Shown: in pieces, positions 24,499 to 34,516 of the stretch
How the letters are laid out: every line of letters starts with the position of its first letter
Numbering within the stretch: position 1 is the stretch's first letter
DNA from: Paraflavisolibacter caeni
Lineage (GTDB): Bacteria > Bacteroidota > Bacteroidia > Chitinophagales > Chitinophagaceae
Direction of reading: 5' to 3'
DNA: 64,000 nucleotides
NCBI RefSeq assembly: GCF_025628885.1
Contig: NZ_JAOTIF010000024.1
Coordinates: 1-64,000, forward strand
The notes under the pieces: model-generated
What the model was told of the DNA's origin: nothing
Seen by the model: only the letters and a program-made list of their open reading frames with translations
The model's database searches: none
Program-made: the position numbers and the translations under genes

Positions 24499-25593
24499 AT
24501 GAAAAATAACAATATTCAAACCGAAGTAGATGCCGCTTATCTCTATCAAAAGCTAGCAGAGCATGAAACAGATGACACAATTGCCAATGTATTCCGGCAA
24601 ATGAGCGACATTGAAAAAGGCCATGCTTTAGCTCTTGCCAGGAAAAGCAATATAAATAGTGAGCAATTATTGCAGCCTTCCTGGAGGGCAAAAACGTTGA
24701 ACATCATTGGGAAAATATTTGGGTATGATTATGTTTTGGGTGTACTAATGGAGACTGAGAAAAGTATTTCCAATGCAATGATCGCCACAAAGAAAAGGAA
24801 CCATCAGTCCATCTCTGGTACAGAAACCACCCATGTAAGCATTCTCCGGTCCATTCTTGAAAAAGAGGGAAAGGTGAGCGGAGCGCAAATCTCCAAATTT
24901 GAGAAGAGGCACCGTTCTGTTGGTGGCAATGCCATTAGGGCTGCTGTTTTAGGCGGTAATGATGGGTTGGTTTCCAATTTTTCTTTGATCATGGGCGTTG
25001 CCGGCGCTACAGCAGGGCAGCAAGGTGTTTTGTTGGCGGGCATTGCGGGGATGCTGGCCGGTGCCTTGTCTATGGCCTTGGGTGAATGGATATCGGTAAA
25101 AAGTTCACAGGAATTATATGAAAACCAGATGCAGATCGAAATGGAGGAAATTGAAACTGATCCCGAAGGAGAGCTGAAAGAATTAGCTTTGATTTACATA
25201 GCCAAGGGCCTTCCTGAGCAACAGGCCTACAGGATGGCCGCAGATCAAATGAAAGATAAGCAGCTTGCTCATGAAGTTTTGGTGCGAGAAGAGCTAGGCA
25301 TTAACCCGGAAGAACTCAAGGGGTCTGCCCTAGAAGCAGCTGTTTACTCTTTCATCTTATTTTCCATAGGTGCTGTCATTCCTGTCTTACCATTTATGTT
25401 TACAGGCGGTATGAAGGCGGTGTTGATCAGTGTTGTTTTAAGTGCTTCAGGACTTTTTTTAATTGGGGCTGCAATCACCTTGTTTACAGGCAGAAGGGTT
25501 CTTTATTCAGGTCTAAGACAAGTGCTTTTTGGCATATCAGCAGCAGCTATCACCTTTTGCATTGGTAAACTGATTGGAGTTTCTATTTCATGA
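24499..25593 (+). CDS. Ferritin-like domain fused to VIT1/CCC1-type metal transporter
   Basis: A 364-residue fusion. Residues about 1-140 form a ferritin-like helical bundle with Glu/His motifs (AEHETDDTIANVFRQMSDIE, EKGHALAL, and later ETEKSISNAM). Residues about 145-364 are a VIT1/CCC1 domain with IRAAVLGGNDGLVSNFSLIM, ALSMALGEWISV and four to five membrane segments. The layout matches membrane-bound ferritin A (MbfA)-type proteins, which export iron or manganese and protect against peroxide. It uses the second of two close ATGs (24494 is out of frame). It lies 92 bp before tauE but without the palindromic operator of the sulfur genes. Confidence 0.82.
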   Translation: MKNNNIQTEVDAAYLYQKLAEHETDDTIANVFRQMSDIEKGHALALARKSNINSEQLLQPSWRAKTLNIIGKIFGYDYVLGVLMETEKSISNAMIATKKRNHQSISGTETTHVSILRSILEKEGKVSGAQISKFEKRHRSVGGNAIRAAVLGGNDGLVSNFSLIMGVAGATAGQQGVLLAGIAGMLAGALSMALGEWISVKSSQELYENQMQIEMEEIETDPEGELKELALIYIAKGLPEQQAYRMAADQMKDKQLAHEVLVREELGINPEELKGSALEAAVYSFILFSIGAVIPVLPFMFTGGMKAVLISVVLSASGLFLIGAAITLFTGRRVLYSGLRQVLFGISAAAITFCIGKLIGVSIS

Positions 25594-25624: not shown

Positions 25625-25669
25625 CGTGACCCAAGTCACGATTCTTTTTCTTGCTTCCATTGATATTTG
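25625..25669 (+). promoter_or_regulatory. Crp/Fnr-like palindrome and -7 element upstream of tauE
   Basis: CGTGACCCAAGTCACG (25625-25640) is a perfect palindrome. TTTGCA begins at 25666, exactly 25 nt after its end, and the ATG is at 25685. If TTTG is the end of the -7 element, the palindrome is centred near -41.5, the class II activator position of Crp/Fnr proteins. The same arrangement recurs at 26508 and 28006. Confidence 0.7.
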
Positions 25670-25684
25670 CAAAAACGAAAATCA

Positions 25685-26485
25685 ATGGAGCGTTTTGGAT
25701 ATGTTGCATCAGCTTTGGTAGGTATTTCATTAGGTCTTATTGGCGGAGGAGGTTCTATACTTACTGTTCCGGTAATGGTTTACCTTTTTGGTCTGCACCC
25801 CCTGCTAGCTACTTCTTATTCGCTGTTTATAGTAGGTTCTACCAGCCTTGTAGGTGCAATCAACAATTATCGTAAGGGTTTAGTCAATATCAGGGCAGCA
25901 CTTTATTTTGGTGCAGCTTCCATCATTACTGTTTTTATTACCCGTAAGTTTCTCATTCCCCTCATTCCCAAAAATATAGTTACCATTGGCGGCTTTACCA
26001 TTACAGAATCGCTGCTTACCATGGTGCTCTTTGCAGTTTTGATGCTGCTGGCATCAGTGAACATGATAAAGGATCGCCGAGAAAAAGCTCCGGAAAAAGA
26101 GTGCATGGACTGTGTCAGATTCTTCAAACTGGTTGGTTATGGTGTATTGATTGGTCTGATTACCGGGCTTTTGGGAGCCGGTGGCGGCTTTTTACTGATT
26201 CCTGCCCTGGTCTTTCTGATTAAAATGCCTATGAAAAGGGCTGTAGGTACCTCACTGCTCATTATAGCATTGAATTCTTTAATGGGTTTTGCTGGTGACA
26301 TTGGTCACTTTCAAATCAACTGGTCCTTTTTGATCTTTATTAGTTTGATTGCTATAGCCGGCATCTTTGTCGGAGGTCTTCTGAGTAAAAAAATACCTGG
26401 TGAAAAGTTGAAAAAGGGTTTTGGATGGTTTGTGCTCATCATGGGTATATACATCATCGTTAAGGAAGTATTTCTAAAAAGTTAA
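25685..26485 (+). CDS. TauE/SafE family permease (probable sulfite/sulfonate-type exporter)
   Basis: A 266-residue inner-membrane protein of the TauE/SafE family from the ATG at 25685; a TTG at 25667 lies inside the promoter. The two-fold repeat is evident: SLGLIGGGGSILTVPVMVYL near the start and GLLGAGGGFLLIPALVF near residue 168, each the family's Gly-rich signature, with eight hydrophobic segments. A CMDC pair sits in the central loop. Members export sulfite, sulfoacetate or related anions. It is followed by the MBL-rhodanese gene with 91 bp between, so sulfite produced by that enzyme is a plausible substrate. Confidence 0.85.
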   Translation: MERFGYVASALVGISLGLIGGGGSILTVPVMVYLFGLHPLLATSYSLFIVGSTSLVGAINNYRKGLVNIRAALYFGAASIITVFITRKFLIPLIPKNIVTIGGFTITESLLTMVLFAVLMLLASVNMIKDRREKAPEKECMDCVRFFKLVGYGVLIGLITGLLGAGGGFLLIPALVFLIKMPMKRAVGTSLLIIALNSLMGFAGDIGHFQINWSFLIFISLIAIAGIFVGGLLSKKIPGEKLKKGFGWFVLIMGIYIIVKEVFLKS

Positions 26486-26507
26486 CGTCTATCAATATAG
26501 TAAATGT

Positions 26508-26552
26508 CGTGACTCATATCACGAAATAAGGCGGACACAATCATCAATTTTG
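26508..26552 (+). promoter_or_regulatory. Crp/Fnr-like palindrome and -7 element upstream of the MBL-rhodanese gene
   Basis: CGTGACTCATATCACG (26508-26523), palindromic in CGTGA-N6-TCACG. TTTGCA starts at 26549, again exactly 25 nt after the palindrome, and the ATG is at 26577. The presence of its own copy shows that this gene is controlled separately from tauE, although both lie in the same direction. Confidence 0.7.
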
Positions 26553-26576
26553 CACAACGAAAAACAAACGATAAAT

Positions 26577-27998
26577 ATGAAAATAGAGCAGATATATACA
26601 GGTTGTTTAGCACAAGGTGCTAACTATATTGAGAGTGAAGGTGAAGCGGTAGTCATTGATCCGCTCAGAGAAGTGGAGCCTTATCTTCAGAAAGCTGAAA
26701 ACAACAATGCAAAAATCAAGTATGTTTTCGAAACGCACTTTCATGCAGATTTTGTATCCGGCCACGTAGACCTTTCAAAGAAAACTGGCGCTCCGATTAT
26801 ATATGGACCAAATGCCAATCCAAGCTTTAAAGCTCATATAGCAGCAGACGGAGAAGAATTCAAGGTAGGTAAAATAACGTTTAAGGTATTGCATACCCCT
26901 GGTCACACTATGGAAAGCACCTGTTATTTATTTAAAGACGAAAGTGGAAAGGAAGTGGCTTTGTTCTCTGGTGATACCTTATTCATCGGTGATGTAGGCT
27001 GGCCTGACTTGGCCCAGAAAGCAGCCCACATGACAAAGGAAGAATTAGCAGGTACTTTATTCGATTCTTTGAGGTTTAAGGTTATGACTTTGCCGGATGA
27101 AATTGTCGTTTACCCGGCTCATGGTGCAGGCAGTGCCTGTGGCAAGAACATAAGTAAGGAAACTACCGATACCCTGGGGCATCAGAAACAAACCAACTAT
27201 GCTCTACGGGCCAATATGACCAGGGAAGAATTCATCAAGGAAGTTACCACTGGGTTAACACCGCCTCCATTATATTTCCCACTGAACGTCATGCTTAACA
27301 AGCAAGGTTATGAAAGCATAGACGAAGTGATGAAGAGGGGGCAGCATGCACTTGATCCGGATGAATTTGAAGCTGCAGCCAATGAAACTGATGCTATTCT
27401 ATTAGATACCAGAAATCCTCAAAGCTTTGCCAGGGGCTATATTCCTAACTCTATCAATATTGGTATTGATGGGAACTTCGCCCCTTGGGTAGGTGCTCTG
27501 ATTCCCGATATCAAGCAACAGATCCTGATTGTGGCAGATGAAGGCAGGGAAGGGGAAGTAATCACACGTCTGGCTAGAGTAGGGTACGATTATACCATAG
27601 GGTATTTGAATGGTGGAATCAAAGCATGGAAAGCCGCTGGAAAAGAAATAGACACCATTCAGTCGGTTTCAGCAGAGGAATTGGCTCATCGTATACTGGG
27701 AGAGCCTGTTCATATTCTGGATGTGAGAAAAGAGGGCGAGTACATCAGTGAACATGTAGACGGAGCAGAAAATGCACCTTTGGATTACATCAATGAAATC
27801 ATGGTACAACTCGATAAGGATAAAACTTATTTCGTGCATTGTGCTGGTGGGTACAGGTCCATGATCTTCACTTCAATTTTAAAAGCAAGGGGTTTTGAAA
27901 ACTTAATTGATGTGCAGGGAGGATTTAAAGCTATCAAAGAATCTGGGCAGTTGTCCGTTACAGATTATATATGTCCTACTAAACTCAATAAAAAATAA
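26577..27998 (+). CDS. Metallo-beta-lactamase-rhodanese fusion, probable persulfide dioxygenase
   Basis: A 473-residue protein from the ATG at 26577; a TTG at 26550 lies in the -7 element. Residues 1-250 are an ETHE1/PDO-like metallo-beta-lactamase domain with THFHADFVSGH, HTPGHT, SGDTLFIGD and YPAHGAGS. Two rhodanese domains follow. The first (about 265-355) has LLDTRNPQSFARGYIPNSI but no catalytic Cys in its loop (VADEGREGE); the second (about 370-460) has the full VHCAGGYRSM. Such proteins oxidise glutathione persulfide to sulfite and may combine this with sulfur transfer. With tauE and yeeE it points to handling of sulfide-derived sulfane sulfur in the cytosol. Confidence 0.88.
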   Translation: MKIEQIYTGCLAQGANYIESEGEAVVIDPLREVEPYLQKAENNNAKIKYVFETHFHADFVSGHVDLSKKTGAPIIYGPNANPSFKAHIAADGEEFKVGKITFKVLHTPGHTMESTCYLFKDESGKEVALFSGDTLFIGDVGWPDLAQKAAHMTKEELAGTLFDSLRFKVMTLPDEIVVYPAHGAGSACGKNISKETTDTLGHQKQTNYALRANMTREEFIKEVTTGLTPPPLYFPLNVMLNKQGYESIDEVMKRGQHALDPDEFEAAANETDAILLDTRNPQSFARGYIPNSINIGIDGNFAPWVGALIPDIKQQILIVADEGREGEVITRLARVGYDYTIGYLNGGIKAWKAAGKEIDTIQSVSAEELAHRILGEPVHILDVRKEGEYISEHVDGAENAPLDYINEIMVQLDKDKTYFVHCAGGYRSMIFTSILKARGFENLIDVQGGFKAIKESGQLSVTDYICPTKLNKK

Positions 27999-28005
27999 AT
28001 AGTAG

Positions 28006-28050
28006 CGTGACAAGTATCACGAACCCTCTTCTCTTCAGTGGTCACCTTTG
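28006..28050 (+). promoter_or_regulatory. Crp/Fnr-like palindrome and -7 element upstream of yeeE
   Basis: CGTGACAAGTATCACG (28006-28021). TTTGCA starts at 28047, exactly 25 nt after its end; the ATG is at 28069. This third copy completes the set for the three sulfur-related genes. Confidence 0.7.
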
Positions 28051-28068
28051 CATTCAAAATTAAAAACA

Positions 28069-28632
28069 ATGATTGAGCTATTGAAACAACCCTGGCCATG
28101 GTATGTCGCGGGAGCTTTTGTAGGCTTGACAGTGCCGGCCTTATTAATATTAGGCAACAAGCACTTTGGCATTTCAGCTAATCTTCGGCATGCCTGTGCA
28201 GCCTGCCTGCCTGCAAACATCAAATTCTTTAAATACGACTGGAAAAAGGAAATATGGAACTTCTTTTTCGTAGGCGGTATCCTGCTTGGTGCATTTCTTG
28301 CCACTCAGTTCTTATCCAGTCCTGATCCAATACAGGTAAGTCCAAAACTTGTAGAAGAACTTAAAGGTTATGGCATCAATGATTACAGTCAGATGATTCC
28401 GTCCCAGATTTTCAGCTTTGAAAGCCTGTTTTCCCTCAGAGGCTCGGTGCTTTTAATTGGAGGTGGTTTACTGGTAGGTTTTGGCTCCCGGTATGCAGGT
28501 GGCTGCACCAGTGGTCATTCTATAATGGGACTAAGCGATCTGCAAAAACCTTCCCTCATTGCAACCCTCAGTTTTATGGTGGGCGGTTTTATTATGGCTA
28601 ACCTGCTTTTACCTTTTATAATGAAACTATAA
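28069..28632 (+). CDS. YeeE/YedE family sulfur-compound transporter (first half type)
   Basis: A 187-residue membrane protein from the ATG at 28069. It shows the YeeE/YedE signature GSRYAGGCTSGHSIMG (about 142-157) with the Cys that in TsuA-type proteins lines the thiosulfate path, and a second Cys region (HACAACLPA, about 42-50) near the N-terminus. Four to five membrane segments are visible. In Bacteroidota this protein is usually followed by a second YeeE half (DUF6691). Here only a remnant of it is left (28675-28888). Together with MBL-rhodanese and TauE it suggests uptake or recycling of thiosulfate or persulfide sulfur. Confidence 0.85.
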   Translation: MIELLKQPWPWYVAGAFVGLTVPALLILGNKHFGISANLRHACAACLPANIKFFKYDWKKEIWNFFFVGGILLGAFLATQFLSSPDPIQVSPKLVEELKGYGINDYSQMIPSQIFSFESLFSLRGSVLLIGGGLLVGFGSRYAGGCTSGHSIMGLSDLQKPSLIATLSFMVGGFIMANLLLPFIMKL

Positions 28633-28674: not shown

Positions 28675-28888
28675 ATGATTGACACTTCTCATCAACATAA
28701 AGCTCATCAACCCATAGCATTGGAACAACTTCCTGATATTGACTACGAAGTGCGTGCTCAGGATACTATATGTGTCAATGAATCTCATTTACAACACAAA
28801 TGGTATCATAACATCAAATACGCTATAATTAAGTGCTGTTGCAGGTACTTGGGTATATGGCTACTTCAGAGAAAGACTGCCGCATTAA
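28675..28888 (+). pseudogene. Remnant of the second YeeE half (DUF6691-like), internal deletion
   Basis: From the ATG at 28675 comes a polar leader (MIDTSHQHKAHQPIALEQLP and onwards) ending WYHNIKYAI, where second-half YeeE proteins begin their first membrane segment. The coding then breaks; at 28832-28888 another frame gives SAVAGTWVYGYFRERLPH and a stop, which is the typical C-terminus of that family. About 100-130 residues of membrane core are missing. The C-terminal match is clear in type; that the leader belongs to the same gene is inference. Confidence 0.55.
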
Positions 28889-28952
28889 TGAACTTATCAG
28901 GTGTTGTTGCCGGGAGGGGTTAGTACAGCCTTCCGAACTTCTTCAAACAGCT

Positions 28953-32602: not shown

Positions 32603-34516
32603 TCAAATAGATGCGAAAGAACCCTCTATAAAAAACATATCAATTTCTCCTTTATTCTTTGCCAGTATTTTTCCTCTGTGAACACATTTGAATTTGTCTT
32701 TTACTAATTCATAAGTACTACCACTAATGTTTATCTTTCCGGCTTCTGAATTTTGTTCCATTCGCGCAGCAACATTCACGGTATCACCCCAGATATCGTA
32801 AGCATATTTTTTTACGCCTACTATTCCGGCAACTACGGGTCCGGTGTGAATTCCAATGCGCATTTCAAATGGAATTTCACCTTTCGATTCCTTTTCTTTT
32901 TTACGCTCCAGCATAAAGTTGCGTATTTCAATGGCTGCACTTACCATATCGGTGGCATGTGTGAAACTGGAAATAGGCAGTCCACTTGCACAGATGTAAG
33001 CATCGCCGACAGTTTTAATCTTCTCAATCTTGTATTTCTGTACCATTTTGTCAAAAGCGCTGAAACAATAATCCAGTTCAGCTACTAATAATTCCGCGCT
33101 TATATTTTGACTTACACGGGTAAAGTCTTTAAAATCGGTGAACATAACCGTTACCATGCTGAAGGTTTTTGGCATGGAACGCCCGTTCAGTTTTATTTCA
33201 TTCGCCACTTCATGCGGAAGGATATTGAGCAGCAATTCATCGCTGCGCTTTTTCTCCTTCTTTATTTTGTTGCGCTGGCCCAGGAACAACATTGCAAAGA
33301 GCAGAACAACGGCAAAGCCACCTACAAAGCCGTTTCGTAGCAGCTTTTGTCTCTGCAGCTCTTTTTTTGTCACGGCCTGCTCTGCTCTTGACTGAGTTTC
33401 TTTTTTGTCAAACTCGTACTGCATTTTCTGCTGTACTATTTTCTCAGTGTTTTCTTTGTTGGCAATACTGTCGCGATATACAATGTACATCTTGTAATAC
33501 GCATAGGCATCTTTATAATTACCTAAGGCGCTGTCAGCAGCGGCAAGGCTCAGGTAAGAATCCTGTATCGTAGTTTTAATTCCGATCTCTTTTGCAAGTT
33601 GCAGGCCCTTCATCAACCATTCCATTGCTTCGCGTGCTTTACCGTCTTCCAAGTGTGCAGTTCCGATATTGGTGTATGAAACGGCAATACCTTCTTTATC
33701 ACCAATTTCCTCTTGTATATTTAATGCGGCAAAATAATTTTTCAATGCCTCGACATATTTCTGCTGGTTTTTGTAAACTACTCCGATGTGGTTGTAAGCT
33801 AAAGCGACTTCGTTTTTATCTCCAAGCTCTTCATACATTTTCTTGGCTTCAAAATAATTTTTCAGTGCCTCAGCATAATTGCCTCGTTCGAAATAGATAA
33901 TTCCAATGTTAAGAAATGAACCGGCAATGCCTCTTTTGTCTCCGTTCGCTTCGCGAATTTTTTTCGCAGCAACATGATTTTTCAACGCTTCGTCATAATT
34001 GCCCATATCGGTATATATAAGCGCAATGTTGTTATATACGCTGCCAATTGCTCTTTTATCACCGGCTTCCTCAAATGCTTTCAGCCCGGTAAAATAATTT
34101 TTCAATGCCTCCGGATAATTACTCATTTCATAATGATTAATCCCAATGTTGACATAAATTTTTGCCGTTGTTAATTTGTCGGTGCTGAAGGCAAGTGCTT
34201 TTGATAAGTATAACTGCGACTGGTCATAGCTTCCCAAGTTATTATATGCCTGGCCTAACCTTAAATATGCTGAGGCAGTGCCCCTGGTATAATTCAATTT
34301 TTCGGAAAGATCTTTTGCCAGGGTGGCATAGTAGATAGTTGTGTCGGTATTGCTGTACAATAATTCATAAGAGAGGGCATTCAGAATATTTACTTTATTG
34401 GTATCCTCGCCAGCAGTTTTTAAAATTACCTGGAGAGAATCAATAGTATTGTTCTGCGCTGCAGAGATATGCTGCAATGCAAGCACCAAACTAAAAAGAA
34501 GAATACTTTTTTTCAT
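32603..34516 (-). CDS. TPR-repeat class III adenylate cyclase
   Basis: A 637-residue protein. After a signal peptide (to about 20) come seven to eight TPR units (about 40-360), several nearly identical (for example NYAEALKNYFEAKKMYEELG and KYVEALKNYFAALNIQEEIG). A coiled coil, one membrane segment (about 395-415, GFVGGFAVVLLFAMLFLG) and a class III cyclase domain (about 450-637) follow. The cyclase has MFTDFKDFT (metal Asp), IKTVGDAYICASG (Lys and metal Asp) and YDIWGDTVNVAARME (Asp, Asn, Arg). The Lys/Asp pair that reads the base is the ATP type, so cAMP is the expected product. The TPRs lie outside the cytosol and may sense an envelope partner. Confidence 0.88.
   Translation of the reverse strand: MKKSILLFSLVLALQHISAAQNNTIDSLQVILKTAGEDTNKVNILNALSYELLYSNTDTTIYYATLAKDLSEKLNYTRGTASAYLRLGQAYNNLGSYDQSQLYLSKALAFSTDKLTTAKIYVNIGINHYEMSNYPEALKNYFTGLKAFEEAGDKRAIGSVYNNIALIYTDMGNYDEALKNHVAAKKIREANGDKRGIAGSFLNIGIIYFERGNYAEALKNYFEAKKMYEELGDKNEVALAYNHIGVVYKNQQKYVEALKNYFAALNIQEEIGDKEGIAVSYTNIGTAHLEDGKAREAMEWLMKGLQLAKEIGIKTTIQDSYLSLAAADSALGNYKDAYAYYKMYIVYRDSIANKENTEKIVQQKMQYEFDKKETQSRAEQAVTKKELQRQKLLRNGFVGGFAVVLLFAMLFLGQRNKIKKEKKRSDELLLNILPHEVANEIKLNGRSMPKTFSMVTVMFTDFKDFTRVSQNISAELLVAELDYCFSAFDKMVQKYKIEKIKTVGDAYICASGLPISSFTHATDMVSAAIEIRNFMLERKKEKESKGEIPFEMRIGIHTGPVVAGIVGVKKYAYDIWGDTVNVAARMEQNSEAGKINISGSTYELVKDKFKCVHRGKILAKNKGEIDMFFIEGSFASI

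Follow-up and report, generated by a model that had tools for sequence, protein, structure and literature searches.

Palindromes before sulfur-handling genes of Paraflavisolibacter caeni as predicted operators of a Crp/Fnr-family activator

Two kinds of described system stand close to the one considered here. One is the Escherichia coli CRP, which holds cyclic AMP (cAMP) with Glu72 and Arg82, reads sites of the GTGA-N6-TCAC type with an R-E-x-x-x-R helix and is centred at -41.5 at class II promoters. The other comprises CstR, SqrR/BigR and FisR, of the CsoR, ArsR and Fis families, respectively, which use thiol-based sensing and control sulfide and persulfide genes such as those for persulfide dioxygenase and rhodaneses. 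Here we analyzed a 64,000-nucleotide (nt) stretch of the Paraflavisolibacter caeni genome (assembly GCF_025628885.1, contig NZ_JAOTIF010000024.1, positions 1 to 64,000; hereafter the window), in which the palindrome CGTGA-N6-TCACG precedes each of three genes, encoding a TauE/SafE family exporter, a persulfide-dioxygenase-like protein and a YeeE/YedE half-transporter (Table 1). An earlier note on this DNA had proposed that a Crp/Fnr-family protein encoded outside the window activates these genes. Our preferred reading, to which we give a probability of roughly 0.8, is that a dedicated Crp/Fnr-family protein, P0001, uses the palindromes as operators and activates sulfide and persulfide genes from class II promoters.

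P0001 and its homologues resemble CRP in predicted fold, helix, type of predicted site and predicted centre, and differ from it in lacking Glu72 and Arg82, in an invariant Cys79, in having few predicted sites, mostly at sulfur genes, and in the Bacteroidota -7 box. To CstR, SqrR/BigR and FisR the likeness lies in the genes that P0001 would control and in a thiol-based sensing that is here only proposed, whereas P0001 belongs to another family and is probably an activator at sigma-A promoters. The earlier note had also placed the known persulfide dioxygenase regulators outside the Crp/Fnr family, in agreement with a passage of a review as regards CstR and FisR (PMC9774590). Neither a named regulator of sulfide or persulfide handling in Bacteroidota nor a description of such a Crp-type sulfur regulator was found in the open-access PMC papers searched. 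Added here to that note are the identity of the candidate regulator, its spread and the match between its helix and the half-site, so that a specific protein, site and spacing are now named, all of them directly testable.

Palindromes in the window and across the genome

The three window palindromes are exact copies of CGTGA-N6-TCACG, each ending exactly 25 nt before TTTGCA with an A three bases 5' of TTTG, just as the earlier note had described. The ATG codons of the TauE, dioxygenase and YeeE genes follow TTTGCA after 13, 22 and 16 nt, which corresponds to the 15-24 nt of that note when counted from TTTG. With two mismatches allowed, a scan of the window gave 10 motif matches against 10.9 expected, that is, no excess over chance; what stands out in the window is that exact copies occur and that they are spaced alike.

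We scanned all 89 contigs of the genome (7.01 Mb) for this motif, using the same pattern read backwards as a control. The exact 16-mer occurs eight times, compared with three matches for the backward-read pattern. Seven of the eight lie within three paralogous TauE/persulfide-dioxygenase/YeeE clusters. The window has three of them, a second cluster (contig C45, locus L007) another three and a third (contig C22, locus L006) one; in this last cluster the palindrome stands before TauE only, and the gaps ahead of the next two genes measure 29 and 70 base pairs (bp). The eighth (C16:53692) fronts an S-adenosylmethionine (SAM)-methyltransferase gene. At all eight, TTTR is found 25 nt past the palindrome, oriented to the gene start. 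The looser pattern GTGAY-N4-RTCAC with TTTR 23-25 nt past the 16-mer matched 11 times, at 10 palindromes, whereas its backward-read version did not match at all; nine of these palindromes face gene starts, among them TGTGACTTTAGTCACA on contig C5 before a coenzyme A (CoA)-disulfide reductase-rhodanese gene, and one (C4:113303) falls within a coding gene. Requiring AnnTTTG at the fixed spacing left six zero-mismatch matches, all in the sulfur clusters. One mismatch added eight matches, of which five are promoter-side (the CoA-disulfide reductase, C16, third C45 and C42 sites, and C4:151352, before a methyltransferase paralogue) and the rest are C4:113303, again, and C1:397216 and C9:78591 in open frames.

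Among the promoter-side matches, the C42 site (C42:12722, locus L352) lies ahead of a frame of at least 493 codons, a putative formate acetyltransferase gene by resemblance. For SQR, the best match in this genome is only 24% identical.

The two small SAM-methyltransferase paralogues (L005:5336-5959 and L350:1549-2157) each have a site of the same geometry, with one arm changed in the second, and as a guess they could methylate sulfide or thiols. Sites were found at 31 methyltransferase loci in two cases by the strict pattern and in four by the relaxed one (strict included); for the 29 copies from relatives these numbers were one and two. The methyltransferase was consequently rejected as a general target and is at most a lineage-specific one.

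A candidate regulator and its sites in relatives

P0001 is a 217-residue Crp-family protein encoded on contig C5 (G000:C5:107665-108318, minus strand; L046:9666-10319), a different contig from that of the window, and its gene is convergent with the CoA-disulfide reductase-rhodanese gene, which has the same promoter type. It scores 36 bits with PF00027 and 35.7 bits with PF13545, above the cut-offs of 27.5 and 27, respectively, which places it in the Crp/Fnr superfamily. The Pfam scan returned cNMP_binding, HTH_Crp_2 and HTH_24 only, with no CsoR, ArsR or Fis-family domain, and the protein falls below every curated NCBIfam cut-off (45.1 bits against 266 for the CRP equivalog NF008732). Its predicted structure has the CRP fold (predicted local distance difference test score 92) and matches CRP structures. 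The recognition helix reads S-R-E-V-I-S-R, and at the positions of the CRP base contacts Arg180, Glu181 and Arg185 (PMC12531629, Table 1) the family has Arg184 in 61/61, Glu185 in 59/61 and Arg189 in 61/61 proteins. Homologues (E ≤ 1e-15) occur in at least 110 of 147 sampled genomes of the same family, many at 30-43% identity, and profile matches (E ≤ 1e-25) in at least 117 of the 296 genomes sampled across the phylum.

The surroundings of these homologues were examined in several sets of loci. Sixty regions came from same-family homologue matches, taken mostly by descending score, with omissions, until identity had dropped to about 40%; 80 named loci, overlapping with the first set, were found partly by a peptide pattern that contains the Glu; and hand-picked spreads of 20 weaker same-family matches and 40 phylum matches from outside the family were added. 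After 10 loci with identical Crp proteins had been dropped, 190 non-redundant loci were available, 152 with Glu185 and 38 with Val185. A match to TauE, persulfide dioxygenase, YeeE or DUF6691 was present in 41 of the 60 stretches and 68 of the 80 named loci, and one of these genes started on the same strand within 400 bp downstream of the Crp stop in 34 and 56 of them, respectively. The Crp/Fnr protein that the earlier note had placed outside the window is thus likely to be P0001, homologues of which often adjoin the cluster.

Strict sites around the homologues numbered 58, against one for the backward control, in 1.00 Mb of the first set (39/60 loci), and 58 against none in 1.39 Mb of the named set (31/80 loci); the 190 non-redundant loci held 193 sites against one in 1.94 Mb. 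Conservation near orthologous genes in relatives, on which the earlier note had made its proposal depend, is therefore seen at these loci, though not everywhere. Site-bearing named loci are labelled as Chitinophagaceae, Aquirufa, Spirosoma, Pedobacter, Mucilaginibacter, Pontibacter, Saprospiraceae, Flavobacterium and unplaced Bacteroidota. Among the 28 Flavobacterium-labelled loci, many fail the strict pattern and keep the 25-nt geometry with one altered arm (for example, TGTGATAAATGTTACT and TGTAACATTAGTCACT); others gave no clear site when scanned in this way. At the level of whole genomes the spaced pattern matched in at least 103 of the 147 relatives, but so did the backward control in many. 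A match somewhere in a genome is therefore no evidence by itself, and we relied only on sites close to Crp or sulfur genes.

The 58 sites of the named set face TauE (20), dioxygenase (13), CoA-disulfide reductase/rhodanese (2) and YeeE (1) genes; the other 22 have no gene for any of the six query proteins inside 200 bp. We surveyed downstream genes other than TauE, persulfide dioxygenase, YeeE and Crp, scanning 20 of 26 proteins with Pfam (one of the 20 gave no match); five sites had no open reading frame in reach or short reading frames only. Across the two sets these genes include ones for small rhodaneses, OsmC, SoxA/TsdA-type cytochromes, Pyr_redox_2 proteins that look SQR-like, OEP efflux proteins, DUF6132, a YgaP-type membrane protein and an OprD porin. 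The OEP/TolC-type proteins past sites of the same geometry (L117:11318-12652, L121:13668-14978, L127:7349-8668 and L176:5754-7097) are an unexpected class of target.

Sites also recur at a distance from the regulator gene. We compared 20 dioxygenase genes from 19 genomes that have a Crp protein of at least 48% identity (set A) with 20 from genomes without one of at least 45% identity (set B), in both cases among the matches listed. In set A, 17/20 genes had a site spaced at 25 nt in which one or both GTGA arms were complete (8/20 strict), and 19 of the genes were on another contig or at least 10 kb from the Crp homologue, L277 being about 1 kb from a second homologue. The corresponding numbers for set B were 4/20 and 2/20, and a GTAA-type site was found at six of its genes and at none of set A. 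The backward-read controls gave nothing in five of six tests and one match in 20 in the GTAA test of set A.

The spacing of these sites is equally consistent. Counted without conditioning on spacing, TTTG stands at 25 nt in 51 of 174 palindrome placements in the 60 regions and own-genome stretches, where none of the remaining offsets between 0 and 55 exceeds four, and in 47 of 140 placements in the named set, with no more than five at other offsets. At the 152 Glu-type loci the figure was 96 of 310, other offsets from 0 to 60 having a mean of 1.98 and a maximum of 8. This recurrence across the phylum, with control matches of 0 or 1, makes it exceedingly improbable that the repeated sites arose by chance or were merely copied along with the paralogous clusters. 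In favour of duplication, the dioxygenases of contigs C17 and C45 are 93% identical among the matches listed, but each of the three window sites fronts a gene of another kind, and their central letters are not the same.

Start-site mapping in Flavobacterium psychrophilum, as reported in a passage of PMC9723704, places TAnnTTTG at -12 to -5, and with the 25-nt spacing the 16-mer would therefore span -49 to -34. The peak and this box position agree with the centre near -41.5 that the earlier note had derived for the palindromes, and no conserved TTTG appears at -33 in the sequence logo. As predicted from sequence, the sites thus have the geometry of class II Crp-dependent promoters. Binding at these sites probably activates the genes. 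The opposite possibility, that P0001 is a repressor which occupies the promoter until sulfur species release it, would have its parallel in SqrR, a repressor. CstR is likewise described as one in a passage of a review (PMC9774590). We consider it improbable here: a repressor needs no fixed 25-nt spacing, whereas the strict -41.5 centre and the lack of a conserved TTTG at -33 are what class II activation requires.

The pairing of P0001 with CGTGA-N6-TCACG itself is very probable from the sequence comparisons. Another Crp-family protein, such as L008 on contig C25, could bind the sites instead, leaving the P0001 family with some other target; L008 also carries the R-E-x-x-x-R reading residues, and the motif is near the general CRP motif. 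Only eight exact sites, seven of them at sulfur genes, would ill suit a global regulator, however, and it is the P0001 family that adjoins sites in relatives and whose residue 185 tracks the half-site, in a comparison made for that family only. We regard binding by another Crp-family protein as decidedly improbable. In the mechanism we propose, a P0001 dimer would bind the predicted operators and activate class II promoters that have no conserved -33 letters, switching on the TauE exporter, the persulfide dioxygenase-rhodanese, the YeeE/DUF6691 transporter and the CoA-disulfide reductase-rhodanese. In some relatives the targets may further include small rhodaneses, OsmC, SQR-like oxidoreductases, SoxA/TsdA-type cytochromes and outer-membrane efflux proteins.

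Residue 185 and the half-site

Sites at the 190 loci were classed as GG (GTGA in both half-sites), mixed or AA (GTAA in both). Loci with Glu185 gave 101 GG, 67 mixed and 4 AA, and those with Val185 gave 0, 1 and 20, respectively. Several more distant homologues likewise combine Val185 with GTAAC-N4-GTTAC-like sites at the same 25-nt spacing. Forty loci had been chosen after the Glu/Val idea arose, from a match table without sequences shown; 19 of them had full sites, with GG/mixed/AA counts of 7/1/0 for Glu and 0/0/13 for Val, and 21 had no full site. GTAA placements fell at 25 nt in 16 of 56 cases in Val loci compared with 2 of 48 in Glu loci, and GTGA placements did so in none of four in Val loci. 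Across these predicted sites, residue 185 tracks the half-site, Glu going with GTGA and Val with GTAA. In a tree built without the helix, the Glu/Val state changed at least four times (approximately four events). Mutants of E. coli CRP at Glu181 reportedly alter the preference at the matching base of the half-site, so that Val is paired with A where Glu is paired with G. The coupled Glu/Val and G/A exchange would be a naturally occurring counterpart of this classic experiment on specificity, in which regulons follow a single residue.

Two Glu-type loci, L173 and L228, are exceptions to the rule in having one GTAA site besides a mixed one. A number of observations weigh against the proposed pairing or its breadth. 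The Crp proteins of L298 and L299, both from one genus, are Glu-type and yet face GTAA sites, and L251 has a GTGA arm though the examined homologue of the same genome (L294) is Val-type. The peptide pattern used for the named loci contains the Glu, so the Glu counts are inflated. A test on three independent pairs gave two to three in the expected direction and none in the opposite one, which is not significant (p 0.25-0.5). No full site was found within 6 kb, or within the whole stretch where it was shorter than that, at 34/152 Glu and 21/38 Val loci (55/190), and none within 150 bp past the Crp stop at 80/152 and 31/38. To these are added the reading residues shared by L008, two backward-read matches beside the eight one-mismatch matches of the genome scan, and one match in 20 for the relaxed GTAA pattern, the sixth of the controls at the dioxygenase genes.

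Cys79, the candidate signal and the window cluster

In a profile alignment to CRP, other residues stand at the positions of Glu72 and Arg82, and the cAMP ligands are not kept. Among 61 homologues, position 80, near Glu72, is Ala in 56 and Ser in 5; near Arg82, position 90 is mostly Glu or Gln and position 91 Thr, Ala or Lys. Cys79 is invariant (61/61 and 190/190 homologues) and aligns directly before Gly71-Glu72 of CRP, at the start of a predicted helix; Cys85 accompanies it in 163/190. The inducing signal would be a sulfane-sulfur or thiol-reactive species acting on Cys79, usually together with Cys85. We slightly favour such Cys79-based sulfur sensing in what is the cAMP-binding pocket of CRP; that an invariant Cys is found there suggests a route from nucleotide sensor to sulfur sensor.

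Alternatively, P0001 may bind the sites and respond to something other than persulfide, with Cys79 serving haem or metal, or with a response to oxygen or nitric oxide in which the sulfur genes are a downstream programme. The absence of Cys85 from 27/190 homologues counts towards this and against our preferred reading. The nearest solved relative by sequence, 3dv8, a Crp/Fnr protein of Eubacterium rectale (E 2.2e-30 with the family profile), has the same Cys-x5-Cys; it comes from a different phylum, and its entry title gives neither a function nor a sulfur role. HcpR of Porphyromonas gingivalis, a Bacteroidota Crp/Fnr-family regulator with a role in nitrosative stress, is among the structural neighbours (9day), but is only 16% identical in the Foldseek alignment. 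FNR proteins of the iron-sulfur type need four cysteines for a [4Fe-4S] cluster, and among 160 homologues 12 have one cysteine, 94 two, as in P0001, 21 three and 33 four, so that a four-cysteine iron-sulfur site cannot be the shared mechanism. The recognised targets, moreover, are chiefly sulfur-handling, and we hold a signal other than persulfide to be unlikely, if still a serious contender. To the widest form of the P0001 reading we give even odds: a Bacteroidota-wide Crp branch built on Cys79, in which the cAMP pocket became a persulfide sensor and the protein came to activate genes of sulfide oxidation and detoxification from class II promoters, and in which several natural Glu-to-Val changes moved whole regulons from GTGA to GTAA.

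Table 1. Features of the sulfur-handling cluster in the window
Feature	Positions	Strand	Remarks
Palindrome 1, CGTGACCCAAGTCACG	25625..25640	+	Exact CGTGA-N6-TCACG match; predicted Crp-type operator, centre -41.5
Predicted -7 box AnnTTTG, TauE promoter	25663..25669	+	TTTGCA 25666-25671; consensus position from a passage of PMC9723704
TauE/SafE family sulfite exporter	25685..26485	+	PF01925
Palindrome 2, CGTGACTCATATCACG	26508..26523	+	Exact CGTGA-N6-TCACG match
Predicted -7 box, persulfide dioxygenase promoter	26546..26552	+	TTTGCA 26549-26554
Metallo-beta-lactamase fold with two rhodanese stretches, persulfide-dioxygenase-like	26577..27998	+	PF00753, PF00581; function inferred from domains
Palindrome 3, CGTGACAAGTATCACG	28006..28021	+	Exact CGTGA-N6-TCACG match
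Predicted -7 box, YeeE promoter	28044..28050	+	TTTGCA 28047-28052
YeeE/YedE half-transporter	28069..28632	+	PF04143, Sulf_transp
Second YeeE-type (DUF6691) gene, truncated remnant	28675..28923	+	Full-length in the other two clusters

The DUF6691 remnant has no Pfam match, and since this copy is cut down in the window and intact in L006 and L007, the window cluster may be decaying. The window dioxygenase has GDVGWPDL where both genomic paralogues have GDVGRPDL. Further downstream, 32603-34516 encodes a TPR protein with an adenylate/guanylate cyclase domain; as P0001 lacks the CRP cAMP ligands, we claim no link between the two. Upstream, 24499-25593 encodes a VIT-family protein, with an N-terminal rubrerythrin match below threshold, and ends shortly 5' of the first palindrome.

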